Assembly (NCBI GenBank): GCA_040218145.1
Contig: JAVJQK010000098.1
Span: 1 to 35,145, forward strand
Direction of reading: 5' to 3'
Length of the DNA stretch: 35,145 bases
Source of the DNA: Sandaracinaceae bacterium
Lineage (GTDB): Bacteria; Myxococcota_A; Polyangia; Polyangiales; Sandaracinaceae
The position numbers and the translations under genes are program-made. The first letter of the stretch is position 1. Each line of letters starts with the position of its first letter. Under the pieces are notes generated by a model that saw only the letters and a program-made list of their open reading frames with translations, did no database searches and was not told where the DNA came from. This document shows, piece by piece, positions 142-8,486 of the stretch.

Positions 142-179
142 GGGGTCCTGGGCCCTAGCGCGCGAAAAGGTACGGTAAG
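142..179 (+). repeat. Left terminal inverted repeat (38 bp)
   Basis: The repeat starts GGGGTCCTGGGCCC and ends AAAGGTACGGTAAG. Its reverse complement is found at 8449-8486 with a single mismatch (G at 164 versus A). Length, GGGG tip and TAAG inner end all fit the Tn3 family. Confidence 0.92.
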
Positions 180-203
180 GACTGCGACCGTGGGACACAG
201 CGA

Positions 204-1112
204 CTATTGGCCGTGGCGACGCACCTCGAGTTGGAGCACGACGTCTCCGGCCGGGTCCGCAGCCAGCAGGTGATCTCCTTCAGCGGCGAGTCGCGCGGGC
301 GTGTGGGGTGCACCCTCGGGCACATCGAATCGGTACTCTCCTCGCACATCGCCCGTACGGACGTCGAGCGCCACGACGCGGTGATTGGCGCTGTCAGCGA
401 CATGAGCAACGCCGCCTCGGGTCACGACGCTCACAGGCACGCTGAGCGGGCTCTCGCCCCCGTCGAGAACGCGCACGAAGCGCCCCTCGCGGTCGAACAC
501 CTGGACGCGGTGGTTGTACGAGTCGGCCACGTACAGCGCACCCTGCTCGTCCTCCGCCACGTCCGTCGGATAGTGAAGCTGCCCGTCGCCGTCGCCCTCC
601 TCGCCCAGCAAGACCTCGGCGCGGCTTTGACGCACTCGCACGATGTGGTGAGCGTAGAAGGCGGCGGCGAGCACGTCTTCGCCAGCCAGCCCCAAGCCCG
701 CGGGCGCTCCCATCGCATGGACGATCTCTGCTTGCCCATCCGCGATGCGCCAGACGCGATCGCCTCCGAAGTCGGAGATCCACACCGCTCCATCCGACGT
801 TCGTGCGACATCCATGGGGCGAACCAGCTCCAGCCCCTCGCCCTCGATGTCGCCGCGCGGATGCCCGCCGGAGGTGAAGCGTGCGACGCGAGCGTGCCCG
901 GTGTCCGCGACGAGGATCTCCGTCGGCGCAATCGCGATCCCCATCGGGTCGTCGAGGTGGCCACCTCCGATGGTGCGAACGACGCGGTACTCGATGGAGG
1001 GTTGCCGATCCGGTGGCGGCGTCGGGTCGGATCCGTCGCACGCCATGAAGAGCACCACCACGGTGCTCGCCCAGACGAGCTCACGGGCTGTCGCTCGCGC
1101 GAAGCAAGACAT
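204..1112 (-). CDS. NHL-repeat beta-propeller lipoprotein, last gene of the mer-type operon
   Basis: The product has 302 residues. ATG 1112 is chosen over an upstream TTG (1133) because a GGGGAGGTG ribosome site precedes it by a few bases. A signal sequence ends in a lipobox (LFMAC, Cys25). The rest is built from NHL-type units such as YPTDVAEDEQGALYVADSYN with HRVQVFD following, the pattern of a six-bladed propeller. NHL propellers usually bind proteins or ligands and some are lyases, but no catalytic residues can be assigned here. The start overlaps the end of the upstream lipoprotein gene by 32 bases, so the genes are probably co-transcribed. Its place inside the transposon, at the end of a MerR-controlled operon, suggests an envelope role in metal handling; this is inference. 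Confidence 0.8.
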   Translation of the reverse strand: MSCFARATARELVWASTVVVLFMACDGSDPTPPPDRQPSIEYRVVRTIGGGHLDDPMGIAIAPTEILVADTGHARVARFTSGGHPRGDIEGEGLELVRPMDVARTSDGAVWISDFGGDRVWRIADGQAEIVHAMGAPAGLGLAGEDVLAAAFYAHHIVRVRQSRAEVLLGEEGDGDGQLHYPTDVAEDEQGALYVADSYNHRVQVFDREGRFVRVLDGGESPLSVPVSVVTRGGVAHVADSANHRVVALDVRTGDVRGEYRFDVPEGAPHTPARLAAEGDHLLAADPAGDVVLQLEVRRHGQ

Positions 1113-1566
1113 CGCGCACCTCCCCGTCGGCAACCCACGTCGGCGTCGTCACCCGCACGCGCAGCGAGAGCGTTCGTCCGGTGAGGCGCTCATCGTCGAA
1201 ACCCAGCAGCACACGAACCGGCGGTACCGACCCATCGGCGTCCGGGCCAACACCGCGAAGCGTGAGCGGAGCGAGGCGTTCGGCGTCCAGCTCTGCCCCG
1301 ACCTCGATGGTGTAGCACTCGCGGGGGCCGAGGGGGCGCGGGAGCTCGCACGAGAGCAGGACCATCCACCCTCCTTGGGTGCCCAAGACGAGCGTTGCCT
1401 CCCCGTCGCCCGCGAACGGGACGAACACCGAGCCGTCGCGTTCGCCCAGCTCCAGCGTGTCCTCCAGCCTCGGGACCGAGCCGTCTTCTGGTTGCTCGCA
1501 GCGAGGGCTCGGCGCGCCGCACCCGACGGCGACGCACACGACCGCAGCGATGCGCAGGCTGCGCAT
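1081..1566 (-). CDS. Small lipoprotein of unknown function in the mer-type operon
   Basis: The product has 161 residues, with a short signal sequence and a lipobox-like end (AVGC, Cys16). The mature part is acidic, beta-rich in appearance, and has scattered cysteines (residues after SPRC, SCE and REC). No family was recognised. The start is ATG 1566, overlapping the stop of the upstream beta-barrel gene as ATGA, which implies translational coupling. It might be a periplasmic partner of the outer-membrane protein encoded just upstream, but only gene order supports this. Confidence 0.7.
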   Translation of the reverse strand: MRSLRIAAVVCVAVGCGAPSPRCEQPEDGSVPRLEDTLELGERDGSVFVPFAGDGEATLVLGTQGGWMVLLSCELPRPLGPRECYTIEVGAELDAERLAPLTLRGVGPDADGSVPPVRVLLGFDDERLTGRTLSLRVRVTTPTWVADGEVRDVLLRASDSP

Positions 1567-2450
1567 CAGAAGCTCAACCGCACGCTCACGCGGGAGCGGG
1601 CGTCGATGTGCCCGCCCGCAGGCTGGAAGACCGGGATCTCGACCGCCGCCTCCAGCACCCAGCGCATCGTTACGAGCTGGATCCCGGGGGTGAGCCACCA
1701 GAAGAAGCCGCCGCTTTCGAGCGGAGCGAGCGGCCCGGTGTCCGGCGCGATCCAACCGACTTGGGTCTCCGCGACCAGGTAGAGGAAGGTCGGGACGCCC
1801 CCGCCGAGCTCCCCCCAAGGGAACACCCGCCCTTGAAAGGACGTCGACACGCGAACCTCATCGCCGCGATCGAGCTCCTCGTTGGGAACCGCGAACAGCC
1901 CCTCGACCGCAACATCCAGCTCGTAGTCCAACGTCTGGTAGGTCAAGACGGCCCCGACGCGCGGCGCCCAGGCGCCGGAGCCGATCTGGAGGTCCGGCGG
2001 GAGCGTCCCGAGGGCGTCCGCCTCTCGAGTGGGACCCGTCGGGAGCCCGAGCCCGGCGAAGGGTGCGACCCGGAAGGTCTCTCCGGGCCCGTTCTCCTGG
2101 ATGACGCTCACGCGCAGAAGCAGCTCGAGGTCCGAGAAGCCCAGCGCGGTTCGGCGCGTGCGCTCCCCCGTCGGCGTGGTGAGCTCCGCGTCCTTGTAGA
2201 CGAAGGGTAGCGACACGAACGCCGCGACCCGCTCGTGCATGCCCCAGACGACGAGCGTCGGAACCGAGAGCACGTTCACGGTGGCGTTCTCGGGAGCTGG
2301 CCCGCCATGGGCGTGGGTCCAGATCACCTGCTCGCGGACCAACACCTCGTCAGCGTGGATCGGCAGCGCCGTCTGGAAGGTGATCGGACCCGCGTGCGCC
2401 ACCGGGACCCATGCGAACGACGCAACCATGACCGCGGCGAGCCGTCTCAC
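1566..2450 (-). CDS. Outer-membrane beta-barrel protein (phenol-MetA/transporter-like)
   Basis: The product has 294 residues. It starts at GTG 2450, overlapping the upstream stop as GTGA. A signal peptide has a likely AHA cleavage site after residue 20. The mature protein shows alternating hydrophobic/polar strands, Gly-rich turns (APFAGLGLPTG) and a C-terminal strand ending in Phe (VSVRLSF), a usual signature for outer-membrane barrels. The pattern resembles the family called 'putative MetA-pathway of phenol degradation', now treated as generic outer-membrane transport proteins; this is recall of pattern, not a search. In this operon it would give a metal-handling system a component in the outer membrane, which classical mer operons lack. 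Confidence 0.72.
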   Translation of the reverse strand: MRRLAAVMVASFAWVPVAHAGPITFQTALPIHADEVLVREQVIWTHAHGGPAPENATVNVLSVPTLVVWGMHERVAAFVSLPFVYKDAELTTPTGERTRRTALGFSDLELLLRVSVIQENGPGETFRVAPFAGLGLPTGPTREADALGTLPPDLQIGSGAWAPRVGAVLTYQTLDYELDVAVEGLFAVPNEELDRGDEVRVSTSFQGRVFPWGELGGGVPTFLYLVAETQVGWIAPDTGPLAPLESGGFFWWLTPGIQLVTMRWVLEAAVEIPVFQPAGGHIDARSRVSVRLSF

Positions 2451-2923
2451 CGGCCCTGCCGGGAGGCGGTCAGCACCTCGTGGTCGCCCTGACGGAGGAC
2501 GACGCCGGAGACCGTCGTTCGACCCGGTTCCGTCGGCGTCGTGCCCCGGATCTCGATGCGCAGGTCGTCGCCGACGAGAAGCCACCAGCGATCCCCGTCC
2601 CGGCGAAGCTCGCCGCTCGCTCTGAGCCGGACCTCGCCCACCGAGAAGCCGGCTTCACCGACCGCGGAGCGCACCGCGACCGGCGTCACCACGCGGCCCT
2701 CGGCCACCTCGAAACGGGCGGTGCCCGTCCGCAGCTCCACCTCGACCGTGCTGACCCCGGGGAGATCGCGCAGCTTGCGCTCGAGGCCGTACGCGCAGAA
2801 CGGACAGGCCAGCCCGTCCACGCGAACCTCGTAGCGCATCGCGTCCGCGTGTGCGGGGGCCGCCATCGTGGCGAGCACGATGGCGAGCGCGGCGACGAGC
2901 GCCGAGAGGACGCGACCCGTCAC
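2447..2923 (-). CDS. Exported heavy-metal-associated (HMA) domain protein, MerP-like
   Basis: The product has 158 residues. It starts at GTG 2923 (GTGA overlap with the upstream gene). A cleavable signal peptide ends at AHA, residue 26. An HMA fold follows at about residues 30-95 with the metal-binding loop VDGLACPFCAYGLE, Cys40 and Cys43. This is the CxxC used by MerP, CopZ and P-type ATPase N-domains to hold soft metal ions. An added C-terminal domain (about 100-158) is rich in beta strands with paired Trp (DRWWLLVGDDL) and is not part of MerP, which is about 90 residues in total. It most likely acts as a periplasmic Hg(II) or soft-metal carrier that could hand metal on to the neighbouring barrel or lipoproteins. 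Confidence 0.85.
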   Translation of the reverse strand: MTGRVLSALVAALAIVLATMAAPAHADAMRYEVRVDGLACPFCAYGLERKLRDLPGVSTVEVELRTGTARFEVAEGRVVTPVAVRSAVGEAGFSVGEVRLRASGELRRDGDRWWLLVGDDLRIEIRGTTPTEPGRTTVSGVVLRQGDHEVLTASRQGR

Positions 2924-3321
2924 GGCCCGTCTCCACCGCCGGGAGCCTCGGCTTCCTCCGGCGCTTCCAGCACCTGCGCGTGGAGCGGCGGCGCCTCGCC
3001 GCGGTCGACCGCCGCGAGCGCGGCGGCCATCGCCGAGGGCTCCACGACCGTCGGGTCGTAGCGCACAGTCGCTTGCGCGTCGGCGAAGCTCAGATCCACG
3101 TAGTGAACGCCCTCGATGCCCTCGAGACACGCCCGCGCCGCGTTCGCACAGCCCTCGCAGACCATGCCATCGACGCTCAGCCGTGCGACTGCGTCTCTCG
3201 GATCCGGCGCTGCCTCGGGAGCCTCGGAGGGGGTCCCCGCGCTCCTTGGGGCCGCCGCTCCCGGCTCGCCGCATGCGACGAGCGCGAGGAGCGACAAAGC
3301 CAGCGTCGCGATGCCCCTCAT
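2920..3321 (-). CDS. HMA-domain lipoprotein, membrane-anchored MerP-like metal binder
   Basis: The product has 133 residues. It starts at ATG 3321, overlapping the upstream stop as ATGA. The signal sequence ends in a lipobox (LLALVAC, Cys17). A Pro/Ala-rich linker leads to an HMA domain with the loop DGMVCEGCANAA (Cys55, Cys58), and a third nearby Cys (Cys65). MerP is normally a free periplasmic protein, so a lipid-anchored version is unusual. With the next gene it forms a tandem pair of exported HMA proteins. The likely role is capture of Hg(II) or another thiophilic metal at the membrane surface; the metal specificity is inferred from MerR, not from this protein. Confidence 0.85.
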   Translation of the reverse strand: MRGIATLALSLLALVACGEPGAAAPRSAGTPSEAPEAAPDPRDAVARLSVDGMVCEGCANAARACLEGIEGVHYVDLSFADAQATVRYDPTVVEPSAMAAALAAVDRGEAPPLHAQVLEAPEEAEAPGGGDGP

Positions 3322-3590
3322 GTGATTGGCGTTCCCACTCCCGCGTCCCGCAGGGCCGCCTCGTCGATGCCGCCGTTCTTGCAGCAGTCGGCGAGCACAC
3401 CGTCGATGGCGACGGCGGGTAGCACGTTCACACCGAGCTGCTTAGCGCGCTCGGCCACCTTCGGCTCTCGCGTGTCCAGCACGCTCACCTCGCACGAGGG
3501 GCACGCGAGCTGGTTCACCAGCGCGATGGTGTCCTCGCAGATTGCGCACCCGGCGCTGAACACTTCGATCGTTCTCGTTGTCGTCATCAT
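3318..3590 (-). CDS. Small thioredoxin/glutaredoxin-like Cys-rich protein of mer operon
   Basis: The product has 90 residues. Of two adjacent ATG codons, 3590 is taken as the start because an AAGGAGA site lies just upstream. There is no signal peptide, so it is cytoplasmic. It looks like a compact thioredoxin fold: strand IEVFSAG, active-site-like CAIC (Cys15, Cys18), a second pair CPSC (Cys30, Cys33), the cis-Pro-like LPAVAIDG and a CC pair near residues 71-72. Six cysteines in 90 residues suggest metal or disulfide handling, for example passing Hg(II) between thiols. It sits 13 bases after the MerC-like fusion gene, in the slot where MerA's N-terminal domain would act in a classical operon. 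Confidence 0.78.
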   Translation of the reverse strand: MMTTTRTIEVFSAGCAICEDTIALVNQLACPSCEVSVLDTREPKVAERAKQLGVNVLPAVAIDGVLADCCKNGGIDEAALRDAGVGTPIT

Positions 3591-3603
3591 TCTCTCCTTC
3601 TCT

Positions 3604-4338
3604 TCACTTGGCTGCCGCCGGTTCACAGGCGGCGCAGGAAACCTCTCGTCGTCGCGGCCAGGCGTTCCAGAGCGACGCGCCGACGAGGAGCGCGACGCCG
3701 ACGTACATGGCGGAGTCGCTGTCGAACCCGAACTTGCCGACCAGCACGAGGCCAGCTGCGATGAGACCGAGCCCAAACGGGCCGTAGCCCCGCCGACGGG
3801 GCGCGCGAAACGCGAGCGTGCCCACCGCGAGGACGAGGAAGCTCGCCGTCAGCGGGAGCAGCCAGCGCGTCTCCATGAGGAAGGTCAGCCCGAACGCGCT
3901 CAGCACGCCGGCGTACGCCGGCCAGCAGGCCGGACACGCGACCTTCGGGAGAAGCGCGGCGCCGACCGCGGGCAGCGCGCCAAGGCTTGACCGCCAACTT
4001 GGCGGAGCCTCCGATATGCCGGGAGCAGGACGGGCGACGGCCTCCGCGAGGGCTCGCGCGATCGTGTCGACCTCCGGCACGCCGACGAGCCGTCCATCGT
4101 CCGTCTCGTAGAGACGGCAACACGACTCCGGGCTGGGCTCGCTGCCCGCGCTCACGTCCTGCTCGTCGACGAGGACGGTCGGGGAGCCGAGCCCCCGGGC
4201 GTACGCCGGCCCCTCGGCCGACAGGTGCTCGGACCAGTGCGGTGTCACCCCGGCCGCGGCGAAGCCGCGCATCAGCGCCTCACGGGCCGCTGCTACGTTG
4301 GGGCAGTCCGCGTCGTAGATGAGCTCAACCTTCGGCAT
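3604..4338 (-). CDS. Thioredoxin-like domain fused to MerC/MerT-like four-helix membrane domain
   Basis: The product has 244 residues. ATG 4338 overlaps the end of merR by 14 bases and is the natural start (PKVELIYDADCPNV follows). Residues 1-100 look like a soluble thioredoxin-like domain with Cys12 in DCPN and vicinal Cys73-Cys74. Residues 118-228 contain four hydrophobic segments (about 121-152, 159-178, 185-205, 211-228), the first with Cys135-Pro-Ala-Cys138, resembling the paired cysteines in helix 1 of MerC/MerT/MerF mercury transporters. A C-terminal CAAC (Cys235, Cys238) ends the chain. It thus has four cysteine sites that could relay a thiophilic metal between membrane and cytosol. 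Assignment as a mercury transporter rests on motifs and operon context; direction of transport is unknown. Confidence 0.78.
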   Translation of the reverse strand: MPKVELIYDADCPNVAAAREALMRGFAAAGVTPHWSEHLSAEGPAYARGLGSPTVLVDEQDVSAGSEPSPESCCRLYETDDGRLVGVPEVDTIARALAEAVARPAPGISEAPPSWRSSLGALPAVGAALLPKVACPACWPAYAGVLSAFGLTFLMETRWLLPLTASFLVLAVGTLAFRAPRRRGYGPFGLGLIAAGLVLVGKFGFDSDSAMYVGVALLVGASLWNAWPRRREVSCAACEPAAAK

Positions 4339-4756
4339 CAACTTCCTCCTCTTCGTCGAGGACCTCGAGAATCGGGCACTCGCTCGTGGGGCCGCGCCCG
4401 CGACACCGGCGAGCGACCCGCTCGAGCGCGCGCCCCATCTGCTGGAGCTCGGCCACGCGCTGCTCGATGTCCTCGAGCTTCGCCCGCGCGAGCGCGCGGA
4501 CGTCTGCGCACGAGCGGTCGTCGTCGACGCGAAGGGCGAGCAGCTCCTCAATCTCCTTGAGGGTGAAGCCCAGGGTCTGCGCGCGGCGGATGAACCGCAC
4601 GCGGCGCACCGTCATCGGTGGGTACTGCCGATACCCCGACGCCCGGCGCGGGGGCTGCGCGAGCAGGCCGCGCCGTTCGTAGTACCGGATGGTCTCGACG
4701 CCCACATCAGCAGCGCGCGCCAGCTCCCCGATCTTCAGCGTGCTCGGTTCCGTCAC
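4325..4756 (-). CDS. merR: MerR, Hg(II)-responsive regulator
   Basis: The product has 143 residues: an N-terminal winged helix-turn-helix (LKIGELARAADVGVETIRYYERRGLL), a long dimerisation helix, and the metal site. With the start at GTG 4756 the cysteines are at 83, 118 and 127, the exact 35- and 9-residue spacing of Cys82, Cys117 and Cys126 in Tn501/Tn21 MerR. This marks it as a mercury sensor rather than a copper, zinc or cadmium MerR. An upstream in-frame GTG (4771) lies inside the operator and is unlikely to be the start. GTG 4756 would give a nearly leaderless message. merR is the first gene of the operon it controls, as in Gram-positive mer operons, rather than divergent as in Tn21. Confidence 0.92.
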   Translation of the reverse strand: MTEPSTLKIGELARAADVGVETIRYYERRGLLAQPPRRASGYRQYPPMTVRRVRFIRRAQTLGFTLKEIEELLALRVDDDRSCADVRALARAKLEDIEQRVAELQQMGRALERVARRCRGRGPTSECPILEVLDEEEEVDAEG

Positions 4757-4762
4757 GCCCTT

Positions 4763-4794
4763 AGTCTGCACCCCGTACCTAGGTACGGAGTCAA
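4763..4794 (-). promoter_or_regulatory. MerR operator/promoter of the mer-type operon
   Basis: Read on the minus strand, TTGACT (4794-4789) is followed at once by the perfect 16-bp palindrome CCGTACCTAGGTACGG (4788-4773). The -35 and dyad closely match the Tn501 merT promoter (TTGACT-CCGTACATGAGTACGG). A weak -10 follows as GCAGAC (19-bp spacer) or CAGACT (20-bp spacer). Elongated spacing is the hallmark of MerR promoters, which are opened by DNA twisting when Hg(II) binds. It lies between the tnpA stop and merR and drives merR together with all downstream cargo. Confidence 0.88.
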
Positions 4795-4804
4795 GGGGCG
4801 GTCG

Positions 4805-7666
4805 TCACACGTCGGCGAATCGGTACGTGCCACTCGGAATCACGTGGGCGTGGAGCAAGGGCGAGATGCGCGCGAGGTCATCTCGATCTACGGGCTTGCT
4901 GTCGCCGCCCTCGAGCGCGCCGACCACGCGCTCGAGCTGCCTCGTGTTCCAGAGCAGAACGCTGTTCGAGAGCACGCTCAGGGCGCTGACCTTGTTCATG
5001 ATCTCGGCGTAGTCCCCGGTCCGGAACGAACCCTGGTTCGCGAAGAAGAGGCGCCGAGCGAGCGCGTGCCGCGACTCGCCCCGGTTGAGCTGGAGGTGGA
5101 TTCGGTCCCGTACGGCGGCGTCGTGGATGTAGCGGAGAATGAAGGTGGTCTTCACGACGCGGCCGAGCATCGTCAGCGCCTTTGCGAGGCGGTCCGAGCG
5201 CGAACTGGCGGCGAGCCGGTCGAGCACCACGTGAGCCGGCGCCGTCCGATCCCGAAGCGAGGACGCTACGCGCACGAGCTGGTCCCACTGCTCACGGACG
5301 AGCTCGACGTCGATCGCGCTGCGGAACAGGCTGCGTAGGTCGCCGGCGACGTGCTCGCGGTCGAGCATGTAGAGCTGCTGGTCCTTCAGATCCTTGAGAC
5401 GCGGCATGAACGAGAAGCCCAGCAAGTAGCAGAGGCCGAAGAGCTGCTCGGTGTAGCCGTGCGTGTCCGTGTAGTGCTCGCGCGGGCGCAGGACGGTGTC
5501 GTTCTCCAGCAGCCCGTCGAGGACGTAGATGGCCTCCCGGGGAGAGCACGAGATGGCCCGCGCCGCGAAGACTGCCGACTGATCCGAGACGTGGGTGTAG
5601 ACGGTGATCGCCCGCTCGTAGAAGCCGAAGTAGCGCGGGTAGAAGCCGGCGAGGAGCGAACTCGCCTGGACGCCGAAGCGCTGGCCGTCGGAAGACGAGC
5701 GAGTTCCGTCGCCCCAGATGCCGGCGAAGGCGAGGCGGTGATGGTGGTCGACGAGGACGCGGTTCGCAGCCTTCAGCGCGTCGGCGCGCAGGCACCACTT
5801 GGACGTGCGCTGGAGCATGTCGACCGTGATGTCCTTCGTGCTCTGCGCCATCGTCGCGGTTCCGAGGTTCGTCCCGTGAGCGACCAGCGCCGCGAGCAAG
5901 GTCGGGTAGCGGAGAGTGGCGCTCCGTTCGGAGTAGCCGCTCGGCGCCGTGAGCTCCGCTGTGAAGCCCGTCCAGCGGTCGACCTCGAGCAGCAGGTCCT
6001 CGATCCGGATCCGTGGCATGTGCGTCTCGATCGCGCGCCTGAGATCTTGAACCCGCTCCGGGATGTCGAGGGCGTCGCGCTTCGACAGTCGCAGAGCACC
6101 CGCCTCGACCTTGGCGAAGCGGTTGTCAGGGAGACCGGCCCGGAAGTCGTGGAGGGCAGCGTCGAACTCCGTCCGCAGTCGCTCGAGCGCGTGCCCGGGC
6201 TCGGCCGGCAGCCCCATCTCCTGATACGCGCGGGCGCGTGCGGCGGCCCACTGCTCGGGCCCCTGAACGAGGTTCCAGAAGGACACGTGATGGCGACTCT
6301 CGGCGAGGTAGAGGTCGCCCGAACGCAGGGCGTCGCGGATGGCGAACGCGAGCGCGAGCTCCCACGAGCGCACGTCCAGCTTGCGCGCCAGGCCGCGCTT
6401 CCACAGCCCGGTCGCGAACTCCGTCGGCGGGTCCTCCCCGAGGTCTGTCGTCCCTTCGTTGTGCAGCACACGGGCGTGCTCGATCGCCTCGATGAGCGGC
6501 TCGGTCCCGGGCCCACCCTCGAACGGGAGGCGCAGGAAGTCCGGGAGGTACCGCTTGAGGGTGTGGTGTCGCGCGCGCAGCGCCTCGAACTCCCCGCGTT
6601 CGGTGAGGCGCTGAAGCTCCCGACAGCCGACGATCGCGCCCTGAACAGCATCGAGGTCGATCTGCTCGACCTGGCTCTCGTCCTTGCCGAGGAGCGCCTC
6701 CAACGCGTCGAGGACCAGGCGGAGGTTCCGGCCCGACTTCTGGCGCAGCTCGCGCTGCTTCTTCTCGTACGCGTTGCGCGCCCGTCGGTGGAGCCCGGTC
6801 GTGAAGACGTGGTGCATCTCGACCAGGTGATCGAGCACCGACTTGTTCGCCTCGACGAGGAAGCACGCGACGAGTGCGTGGCACTTGGCCGGCTTGAACC
6901 GCTTGAGGTCATCGACGTCGTAGCGACGAACGAGCTCGGCGTGGTGGAGCACGACCTCGGGCCGGACACCCGACAGGTCGACCTGGCCCACCCCGAGACC
7001 GCGCAGCAGCTCGGCGCGCTCGAGGTAGGTCTTGATCGCCGAGGGCGTCGGCTCCGGCGGATACTGCTTCAGCGCGAAGAGCTGGGAGCGGTGGCCGGGG
7101 ACATCCAAGAGATCGTCGATGGCCACCCTCTGCTCCGCCGTCAGCCGCTCACTGATGGTTCCGAGCAAGTCGTTCTCTGTGCGCGCCGCCGCCCGCGCGG
7201 CCATTCGTTCGAGCGTCGAGCGCGCCGGGATGACGATGCAGCGCAGCCGGAGGTACTCCTCGGCCTCGCGGACGAGCTCGTCGGCGAGCAGTCCGCGCGC
7301 CGCGCGTTCCGTCATCCACACGTCGAGCGTCTCCCGGGCTGTGTCGTCCAGCGTGCAGTAGCCGAGGTGGGAGCGGATCCGCTTCTCGTGCTCGAGGTCG
7401 GTCGCCTTCCGCGCCGGGGGCGTGACGAGCAGCACCGGCGGGAGGCCGACCTGCCGCCCGACGTGGTTCATGATCCGGACGGGGATCGCGTCGTACTCGT
7501 CCGGGCTCAGGAAGCGGCCGAGGCAACGGAGCACGCAGAGCTGAAGCGCGAAGCTGTGGCGCTTGTCGGCGCCTCGGCAGCGACGCACCTCGACCAGGTC
7601 TTCCTCGCTGAGCGTCCAGTCGCGCGCCAGCTCTTCGTCCGTCGGATCGACGGGCAAGCGGATCAT
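4805..7666 (-). CDS. tnpA: Tn3-family DDE transposase
   Basis: The product has 953 residues, close to the usual 950-1000 of the family. ATG 7666 is preceded by AGGGGGGAG. The N-terminal part (PTDEELARDWTLSEED) is typical of the DUF4158-like DNA-binding region. The catalytic triad can be placed at Asp653 (WGDGT), Asp734 (HYTDTHGYTE) and Glu864 (NRGESRHALARR). The motif LLGFSFMPRLKDLKDQQLY is strongly conserved in Tn3 transposases. No frameshift or stop interrupts it. It is 107 bases downstream of tnpR in the same direction, and its stop is 11 bases before the mer promoter. Confidence 0.96.
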   Translation of the reverse strand: MIRLPVDPTDEELARDWTLSEEDLVEVRRCRGADKRHSFALQLCVLRCLGRFLSPDEYDAIPVRIMNHVGRQVGLPPVLLVTPPARKATDLEHEKRIRSHLGYCTLDDTARETLDVWMTERAARGLLADELVREAEEYLRLRCIVIPARSTLERMAARAAARTENDLLGTISERLTAEQRVAIDDLLDVPGHRSQLFALKQYPPEPTPSAIKTYLERAELLRGLGVGQVDLSGVRPEVVLHHAELVRRYDVDDLKRFKPAKCHALVACFLVEANKSVLDHLVEMHHVFTTGLHRRARNAYEKKQRELRQKSGRNLRLVLDALEALLGKDESQVEQIDLDAVQGAIVGCRELQRLTERGEFEALRARHHTLKRYLPDFLRLPFEGGPGTEPLIEAIEHARVLHNEGTTDLGEDPPTEFATGLWKRGLARKLDVRSWELALAFAIRDALRSGDLYLAESRHHVSFWNLVQGPEQWAAARARAYQEMGLPAEPGHALERLRTEFDAALHDFRAGLPDNRFAKVEAGALRLSKRDALDIPERVQDLRRAIETHMPRIRIEDLLLEVDRWTGFTAELTAPSGYSERSATLRYPTLLAALVAHGTNLGTATMAQSTKDITVDMLQRTSKWCLRADALKAANRVLVDHHHRLAFAGIWGDGTRSSSDGQRFGVQASSLLAGFYPRYFGFYERAITVYTHVSDQSAVFAARAISCSPREAIYVLDGLLENDTVLRPREHYTDTHGYTEQLFGLCYLLGFSFMPRLKDLKDQQLYMLDREHVAGDLRSLFRSAIDVELVREQWDQLVRVASSLRDRTAPAHVVLDRLAASSRSDRLAKALTMLGRVVKTTFILRYIHDAAVRDRIHLQLNRGESRHALARRLFFANQGSFRTGDYAEIMNKVSALSVLSNSVLLWNTRQLERVVGALEGGDSKPVDRDDLARISPLLHAHVIPSGTYRFADV

Positions 7667-7714
7667 GTCTCCCCCCTTCGCCCCGGGTGAGACAGCCGCC
7701 CATCGGGCGGCGCG

Positions 7715-7751
7715 ATCCGTACCACAACCGTCCGGTTTTGGTACGACGGAT
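7715..7751. repeat. Imperfect inverted repeat in the tnpR-tnpA gap, candidate res subsite
   Basis: Left arm ATCCGTACCACAACCG (7715-7730) pairs with the reverse complement of 7733-7751, with one mismatch and a three-base bulge, around a 2-base centre. It lies in the 107-base gap between tnpR and tnpA (7667-7773). The space upstream of tnpR is only about 70 bases, too short for a usual three-subsite res of 100 bases or more, so res may be here. A transcript hairpin or a TnpA/TnpR operator is also possible. Confidence 0.4.
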
Positions 7752-7773
7752 TCGGACACGTGTTTCACGGGGT

Positions 7774-8379
7774 TTAGACCCCCTCTTCGTCGGACCCCTT
7801 TTTGGAACGCAGCGCGCGGTGGAGCGTGGACACCGGGACGTCGAGTTCGCGCGCCACCTCGCGGAACGAGAGCCCCTTCGTGCGGAGTCGCTTCGCCTGG
7901 GGCACATCGACCCGTCGCTTGGGTCGGCCGAGCCGGATGCCCTTCCGCCGTGCGCGCTCGATCCCCGCCTTCGTTCGCTCGGCAATCTGCGCGCGCTCCT
8001 GCTCGGCCACCCACCCGAAGATGGCGATCAACAGCGAGCGGACGGGACCGCCCGTGTCGAGCCACGGCTCGCGCACGCTGATCACCTCGACGCCGCAGCG
8101 GTCGAGGTCGAGCACCGCCTGAAGGTTGCCGGTCATCGACCGCCCGAGGCGGTCGAGCGACCACACCAGCAGTACGTCGAAGTCGCCTCGGTGCGCTGCA
8201 TCCATCATCGCCTTGAACTCGGGCCGCGCGCGGGTCGCGCTCACGCTCTCCTCGAACGTGGTGACGACCTTCAGCTTCCTCGCACGCGCCAGCCGCCGGA
8301 CGTCGGGACGCTGGTTGTCGAGGGACTGCTCCCCGCGGGAGACCCGGAGGTAGACCGCTGCGCGCTTTGCCTTCGCCAC
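7774..8379 (-). CDS. tnpR: Serine resolvase of the Tn3 element
   Basis: The product has 201 residues with a GTG start at 8379. The N-terminal resolvase fold carries AVYLRVSRGEQS with the nucleophile at Ser14, then the conserved VWSLDRLGRS and IFGWVAEQERAQIAERTKAGI (start of the long E helix). A C-terminal Hin-like helix-turn-helix follows (GLSFREVARELDVPVSTLHRAL). It resolves cointegrates formed by TnpA. It is the first gene inside the right repeat. The stop codon lies in a GGGGTCTAAACCCC hairpin (minus strand, 7782-7769). Confidence 0.94.
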   Translation of the reverse strand: MAKAKRAAVYLRVSRGEQSLDNQRPDVRRLARARKLKVVTTFEESVSATRARPEFKAMMDAAHRGDFDVLLVWSLDRLGRSMTGNLQAVLDLDRCGVEVISVREPWLDTGGPVRSLLIAIFGWVAEQERAQIAERTKAGIERARRKGIRLGRPKRRVDVPQAKRLRTKGLSFREVARELDVPVSTLHRALRSKKGSDEEGV

Positions 8380-8399
8380 CCAGCGAGCATGGCCCCGAT

Positions 8400-8418
8400 C
8401 GCGCGAAAAGGTACGGTA
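8400..8418 (+). repeat. Internal copy of the inner half of the terminal repeat
   Basis: CGCGCGAAAAGGTACGGTA is identical to 159-177 of the left repeat. It faces the inner half of the right repeat (8450-8468) as an inverted pair about 31 bases apart. In Tn3 elements the inner part of the repeat is the transposase recognition box, so this is a second candidate TnpA binding site, in the tnpR promoter region. Confidence 0.75.
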
Positions 8419-8448
8419 GTGAGCCGCTCGGACGCCGATTCTGGGGCG

Positions 8449-8486
8449 CTTACCGTACCTTTTTGCGCGCTAGGGCCCAGGACCCC
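8449..8486 (-). repeat. Right terminal inverted repeat (38 bp)
   Basis: Read outside-in on the minus strand it begins GGGGTCCTGGGCCC and ends TAAG, matching 142-179 with one mismatch. Two bases separate it from the stop codon (TAG, 8491-8489) of the kinase gene. Confidence 0.92.

Follow-up and report, generated by a model that had tools for sequence, protein, structure and literature searches.

A putative MerA-independent mercury-handling cassette with a thioredoxin-fold–MerC fusion on a Tn3-family transposon of a Sandaracinaceae bacterium

What does a MerC-type membrane carrier do with a thioredoxin-like domain fused to its N terminus, and to what would it deliver its metal? Mercury resistance as it is taught consists of a carrier plus the mercuric reductase MerA. 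The question is raised by a single reading frame in a 35,145-nucleotide stretch of a Sandaracinaceae genome (contig JAVJQK010000098.1, positions 1–35,145, hereafter the window), in which a sequence-only reading had seen a built-in thiol relay that could replace the hand-off from MerT to MerA, or run in reverse and feed metal out of the cytosol.

The fusion protein, its fold and its cysteines

The DF-MerC fusion protein (P0001) is encoded by one open reading frame on the reverse strand (3604–4338; ATG at 4338, stop at 3604) and comprises 244 residues. Its N-terminal DF-like thioredoxin-fold domain (residues 1–104; 4027–4338, reverse strand) carries the conserved cysteines C12 and C74 and is followed by the MerC domain (residues ~113–244; 3604–4002, reverse strand), with a CPAC motif at 135–138 and a C-terminal CxxC at 235–238. 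The MerC-like nature of the membrane domain, proposed earlier from the sequence, is borne out by the Pfam MerC model PF03203, which matches residues 124–225 at 36.9 bits, clearing the cut-off of 27.6, and matches all 36 members of the set A1 at E ≤ 1. The protein shares with the MerC of Tn21-type mer operons a helical membrane domain, a CxxC in the first helix and a cytosolic C-terminal cysteine pair. However, it lies far below the cut-offs of the MerC equivalog models NF033784 and NF010318 (34.1 and 35.2 bits against 140 and 170), adds the 104-residue N-terminal thioredoxin-fold domain, and comes with its own MerR and a thioredoxin-like partner, with no MerA in the operon or the genome.

The N-terminal domain aligns end to end (residues 4–96) with NF049942, the NCBIfam model of the DF family (seleno)protein, and has in common with it a CPN motif, a GSPT loop and the cysteine of a CR-x-Y motif. 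As its score of 37.9 bits is below the cut-off of 70, we regard the domain as a relative of DF and not as a DF member; the chromosomal paralogue of the fusion, at 43.9 bits, is likewise under this cut-off. True DF members stand alone, whereas the domain described here is joined to a transporter. In the literature protein DF figures only as a hypothetical protein that lacks conserved domains (PMC12013277), and it is listed with no function given (PMC13188914). A selenoprotein identity of the DF domain was rejected, the flagged TGA codons being normal stop codons at gene ends.

An AlphaFold model of the fusion, built with 36 homologues (mean pLDDT 83, with residues 1–60 at 89–98), places a thioredoxin-type domain with the matching order of secondary structure elements ahead of a helical membrane bundle. 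Residues 1–104 overlay with thioredoxins in VIA-align at Z scores of 6.4–7.5, over about 80 residues and at 2.5–3.5 Å, and the Foldseek and VIA-align matches of the model to the PDB involve the N-terminal domain only; a sequence search of solved structures with the fusion gave no relevant match. In the predicted structure the soluble domain is a thioredoxin fold, and the membrane domain resembles MerC by its profile match; neither of the two outcomes that the sequence-only reading had named as refuting it, no thioredoxin fold within residues 1–100 or no MerC resemblance of the helices, came about. C12 directly precedes helix 1 of the model, which is the place of the active cysteine in thioredoxins, and the GSPT segment resembles the cis-proline loop. 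The thioredoxin CxxC active site is itself absent, and the domain has CPNV instead.

All of the cysteine motifs picked out at the outset are present in the fusion: DCPN (C12), CC (C73–C74), CPAC (C135, C138) and CAAC (C235, C238). Across 42 aligned relatives C12 is kept in 38, C74 in 39, C135 and C138 in 41 each, C235 in 36 and C238 in 38, and equivalents of C12 and C74 also occur in the DF proteins of two further loci (L108, L109). C73 is a cysteine in just 11 of the 42, and the vicinal pair is therefore a local accident and not a family feature. A built-in thiol relay is plausible, but its CPAC motif in helix 1 and its C-terminal cysteine pair are ordinary features of MerC. The charged loops RAPRRR, between TM2 and TM3, and RRRE, after TM4, together with the positive-inside rule, suggest from sequence and model that both termini, and hence the thioredoxin-like domain, are cytosolic. 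The joining of a mercury membrane carrier to a small soluble metal-thiol domain has parallels in the MerTP fusions (NF033556) and the MerT/CopZ selenoprotein fusions (NF045683). In these, however, the carrier is MerT and the added domain is a C-terminal HMA domain (MerP/CopZ), whereas in the window the carrier is MerC and the thioredoxin fold added to it is N-terminal and cytosolic.

A three-gene cassette on a Tn3-family transposon

The fusion belongs to a cassette with a MerR-type regulator and a second thioredoxin-like protein, preceded by a mer operator and carried by a transposon, all of which lay beyond the view of the sequence-only reading. A scan of species genomes returned 39 loci, and 38 loci carry the full-length fusion. 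The full-length relatives are 33–87% identical, and the hosts are found among Myxococcota, alpha-, beta- and gammaproteobacteria, Acidobacteria, Planctomycetes, Spirochaetes, Chlamydiae and Nitrospirae. Conserved across at least seven phyla, it is an old and widespread fusion; a search of a plasmid collection gave no full-length copy. The order of MerR-type regulator, DF-MerC fusion and Trx3 is near-invariant, with a MerR-family gene adjacent on the same strand in 37 of the 38 full-fusion loci and a gene for Trx3, a 90-residue thioredoxin-like protein, after the fusion in 36. We found no papers on this cassette in the literature searched.

In the window, Trx3 (3318–3590, reverse strand) has six cysteines, C15xxC18, C30xxC33 and C69C70, which are kept in 33–38 of 38 aligned sequences within the motifs FSAGCxxC, ACxSC and a vicinal CC. 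Its score with PF13192 (24.4 bits) is just below the cut-off of 24.8. Unlike the N-terminal domain of the fusion it possesses a thioredoxin-type CxxC, and the profiles of the two match weakly when compared with each other. In two Acidobacteria (L037, L038) the MerC domain is joined directly to Trx3 and the DF domain is absent, an arrangement that speaks for a direct interplay of MerC and Trx3; the structure model of a MerC-Trx3 fusion displays a thioredoxin-type fold for Trx3. The distance matrices of DF, MerC, Trx3 and MerR correlate with r of 0.43–0.74, values that none of 2,000 permutations reaches, as expected of a unit staying together, although shared host history could also be the cause.

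Three copies of the fusion are present in the 11.06-Mb genome of the window's host: that of the window, a transposon-borne copy that is 92% identical to it (C39), and a diverged chromosomal copy (C122). A second mer operator lies 4.6 kb from the C39 cassette (L141:8423–9409; G000:C39), together with a truncated MerR and the end of a transposase; these are the remains of another, broken transposon copy. A 16-kb Spirochaetaceae contig (PBUB01000001.1) bears two identical-scoring cassette copies (L032, L033) about 11 kb apart.

The operon of the window lies within a complete-looking, 8.3-kb Tn3-family transposon (142–8486) with 38-bp terminal inverted repeats. The left repeat (142–179, forward strand) reads GGGGTCCTGGGCCCTAGCGCGCGAAAAGGTACGGTAAG, with a chance expectation of 0 for its core, and the right repeat (8449–8486, reverse strand) is identical to it at 37 of 38 positions, giving ends of the form GGGGTCC...GGTAAG. 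The element encodes a DDE transposase of the Tn3 family (4805–8164, reverse strand; NF033527, 828.9 bits; longest reading frame, start uncertain) and a serine recombinase or resolvase (7774–8379, reverse strand; PF00239, 127.7 bits). No target-site duplication remains, since the flanking 5 bp differ (GGCCA on the left, GCCTA on the right). The transposon end recurs a third time, in diverged form, at 8381–8418, just inside the right end; this copy runs opposite to the right repeat and may be left over from another insertion or belong to the resolution site. Besides the cassette, the operon includes a MerP/CopZ-like HMA-domain lipoprotein with the lipobox LVAC (2920–3321, reverse strand; PF00403, 40 bits; NF041115, 54 bits, below the cut-off) and a MerP-like HMA-domain protein with a signal-peptide-like N terminus (2447–2884, reverse strand; PF00403, 34.6 bits; start uncertain). 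The last gene of the apparent operon encodes a predicted outer-membrane β-barrel-like protein (1566–2516, reverse strand; start uncertain), for which the match to PF13557 is weak (E 0.023, below the cut-off). Further passengers of the transposon are an NHL-repeat-like lipoprotein (204–1133) and a short lipoprotein-like reading frame (1190–1570). The 8.3-kb element is built like the mercury transposons of the Tn21/Tn501 type, but has the cassette where those carry merTPA.

The link to mercury and the missing reductase

The regulator of the cassette (4325–4771, reverse strand; longest reading frame, with the true start probably inside) is a MerR-family protein with three Hg(II) cysteines, the equivalents of C82, C117 and C126, which are kept in 40, 42 and 42 of 43 aligned rows. 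With TIGR02051, the Hg-MerR model, it reaches 146 bits, just short of the cut-off of 150.85, and it also scores well with the ZntR, CueR and CadR models. Before it lies a mer-type operator with a −35 box (4773–4794, reverse strand; TTGACT CCGTACCTAGGTACGG), in which TTGACTCCGTAC-CTAG-GTACGG is an exact match to TTGACTCCGTAC-N4-GTACGG, with a chance expectation of 0. The merR–merT spacer of a classical mer operon (L043) reads TTGACTCCGTACATAACTACGG, and the operator motif precedes merT in L037 and is also found within two merA loci (L132, L133). In the whole 11-Mb genome, allowing 0–1 mismatch, the operator is confined to the sites in front of the three fusion copies and of one truncated MerR copy. 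The TTGAC box is present in 35 of 35 testable cassettes and a near-perfect dyad in 22, against 0.3% of shuffles. The promoter spacer of the cassettes is 20 bp and not 19, and in many relatives the dyad departs from the strict mer form; the operator and the MerR cysteines also resemble those of Cd/Pb/Zn MerR proteins.

In other Myxococcota the modules of the cassette are found as separate genes within mercury operons. DF stands between MerR and MerT in three of these (L103–L105) and in the operon MerR-DF-MerT-MerP-MerB (L108), whose DF scores 119 bits and so belongs to NF049942 proper; in L109 DF adjoins MerC. Trx3 closes the series MerT-MerP-MerB-MerR-MerC-Trx3 (L100) and MerR-MerA-MerT-MerP-MerB-MerR-Trx3 (L110). 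Taken with the Hg(II) cysteines of MerR and the mer operator, these operons make mercury the likely substrate. For DF, merely hypothetical so far, a mer-operon context such as that of L108 suggests a first role. The window's genome also holds a standalone DF-like gene (L099:5765–6100; G000:C8:17764–18099), followed by a macrodomain-like gene and with no MerR, MerC or MerT within the stretch read.

The locus thus has the MerR, the operator, the MerC-type carrier and the HMA proteins of a canonical mer operon (merR-T-P-C-A-D-E, as in L043) and the Tn3-family vehicle of Tn21 and Tn501. It differs in having no merA, merD, merE or merT, in the 20-bp spacer, and in a MerR that is co-directional and first in the operon. 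Neither MerA, MerB nor MerT was found when the window was searched for a hand-off partner. A profile search for MerA in the 11-Mb genome gave nothing above the cut-off (best 327 against 454 bits), and the near matches that were checked are without the C-terminal CC of MerA. There is therefore no MerT-to-MerA hand-off to be replaced here, and this part of the earlier proposal falls away.

Nine further Myxococcota genomes that carry the full fusion are likewise all without MerA, and of the 33 full-fusion genomes reached by the other scan 3 have it. Overall it is missing from about 40 of 43 such genomes, a few of which are probably counted twice, and the absence is soft because many are fragmentary MAGs. 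As MerA is rare across Myxococcota in any case (7 of 282), the pattern shows independence from MerA and not avoidance of it, and an anti-correlation between fusion and MerA in this group was rejected as unsupported. The comparison of full-fusion genomes with those having MerC without DF (MerA in 3 of 43 and 4 of 10, respectively) is weak, with a Fisher p of 0.018 from unequal, non-independent samples. MerB was found neither in the window's genome nor in the full-fusion genomes of the same sample, a negative that the incompleteness of MAGs softens in the same way.

In eight of 16 Myxococcota MerB genes that were checked, a single conserved site holds an in-frame TGA and reads PTUSQMHFF, with one PTUNQMHFF and one PTUSTMHFF (L052–L059, match regions; L100:888–1259; L108:4271–4639; L110:4172–4543). 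The site is near the usual second catalytic cysteine and looks like that of a selenocysteine MerB. The MerB gene of L064 has two in-frame TGA codons.

A proposed route for Hg(II) and its alternatives

On the comparisons above, the cassette is real and conserved and makes functional sense as a whole; it is a mer-type system whose carrier has a new architecture and which lacks MerA. We consider it probable that MerR, DF-MerC and Trx3, carried here by a Tn3-family transposon, are the core of a cassette that is induced by Hg(II) and handles mercury independently of MerA, and tentatively propose the following mechanism. MerR would bind Hg(II), pass to its activating form and open its own promoter, thereby turning on the cassette. 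The MerC domain could then pass mercurial ions across the inner membrane, from the CPAC pair to the cytosolic C-terminal CxxC, from which the fused DF domain (C12, C74) may take Hg(II) by thiol exchange. Trx3, with its three pairs of cysteines, would be next to take the metal and hold it or pass it on. Such channelled capture would keep cytosolic Hg(II) on dedicated protein thiols instead of enzymes, the candidate final sinks being sequestration, the cellular thiol and thioredoxin systems, or export. In this scheme the order and direction of the transfer, and the point where it ends, are inferred.

In MerE and MerT, transport depends on a cysteine pair in the first membrane helix (PMC5715351). 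Characterised MerC-type carriers are uptake proteins, so that by analogy inward capture is the default direction. Import of Hg(II) into a cytosol free of MerA looks harmful unless a sink exists, and most hosts are without MerA. This speaks in favour of outward transport, in which DF and Trx3 would collect Hg(II) from cytosolic thiols, load the C-terminal CxxC of MerC and release the metal to periplasmic HMA proteins for efflux or periplasmic sequestration; the HMA lipoprotein, the second HMA protein and the β-barrel-like protein of the window could serve as periplasmic sinks. However, the characterised MerC, MerT and MerE proteins import mercurials (PMC5715351 and its references), the fusion has no energy-coupling domain, the cytosol is the thiol-rich side, and the HMA genes lie outside the conserved core of the cassette. 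We hold efflux to be the main rival to inward capture, albeit an unlikely one.

Less likely are a change of metal and a change of chemistry. A MerC-derived carrier could serve another soft metal (Cu, Ag, Au, Cd or Pb), given that P-type ATPases, RND pumps and multicopper oxidases also occur in the neighbourhoods and that MerR is close to the ZntR, CueR and CadR models as well. Yet these neighbours are scattered (3–5 of 68 each), the mer operator is exact, and the DF, MerC and Trx3 modules recur inside operons with MerB, MerT and MerA, which makes such a substrate quite improbable. The CxxC pairs on both sides of the membrane and the thioredoxin-like partner would also suit a disulfide relay, sending reducing power via CPAC to protect periplasmic or membrane thiols during metal stress. 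The DF domain, with CPNV, has no second active-site cysteine for this, and the mer operator and the MerB and MerT neighbours point to mercury; a redox relay is distinctly improbable. The MerC domain also lacks the second transmembrane cysteine that CcdA/DsbD-type relays use, which counts further against it. Least of all do we expect the DF domain to be a MerB-like organomercurial lyase in a fusion that both transports and cleaves organomercurials. Several homologues of the domain on plasmids bear the annotation 'alkylmercury lyase', and MerC models the name organomercurial transporter, but no MerB model is among the families listed for the 36 fusion members. Despite a motif resemblance to MerB (PF03243), profile comparison of the domain with Myxococcota MerB gives no match (hhalign probability 0.1%), which nearly excludes this identity.

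Thiol-based handling of Hg(II) by the MerA-independent cassette would have precedents in principle. Detoxification of Hg(II) via thiols independently of MerA is, in principle, documented, and Thermus relies in part on thioredoxins and low-molecular-weight thiols (PMC8261052 and references there); in it, as proposed here, thiol systems are working parts of Hg(II) resistance. Thermus, however, keeps MerA and makes bacillithiol, whereas the window encodes protein thiols beside the carrier. The Sec-assisted organometallic (SAO) system with SaoT and SaoL (PMC13188914) similarly combines thioredoxin-like and organometal-related proteins in one operon, but it is based on an ABC transporter and contains Sec, and Trx3 gave no match to the SaoT model.

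It is possible, though we advance this more tentatively than the cassette itself, that these loci represent an unnamed and widespread mercury system, in which detoxification without mercuric reductase proceeds along a chain of protein thiols and the DF family acts as the cytosolic Hg(II) acceptor of MerC and MerT carriers. The chain would run from the membrane CPAC through the C-terminal CxxC and the monothiol thioredoxin-fold domain to the six-cysteine Trx3. The usual marker for mercury-handling potential in metagenomes is merA. If the proposal is true, a second mercury route, extending from Myxococcota to Chlamydiae, has perhaps been overlooked so far, and merA-based metagenome counts of this potential would change. 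The DF family, roleless so far, gains a testable role, and the covalent joins of DF to MerC and of MerC to Trx3 would make the hand-off of Hg(II) from carrier to cytosolic thiol directly testable.
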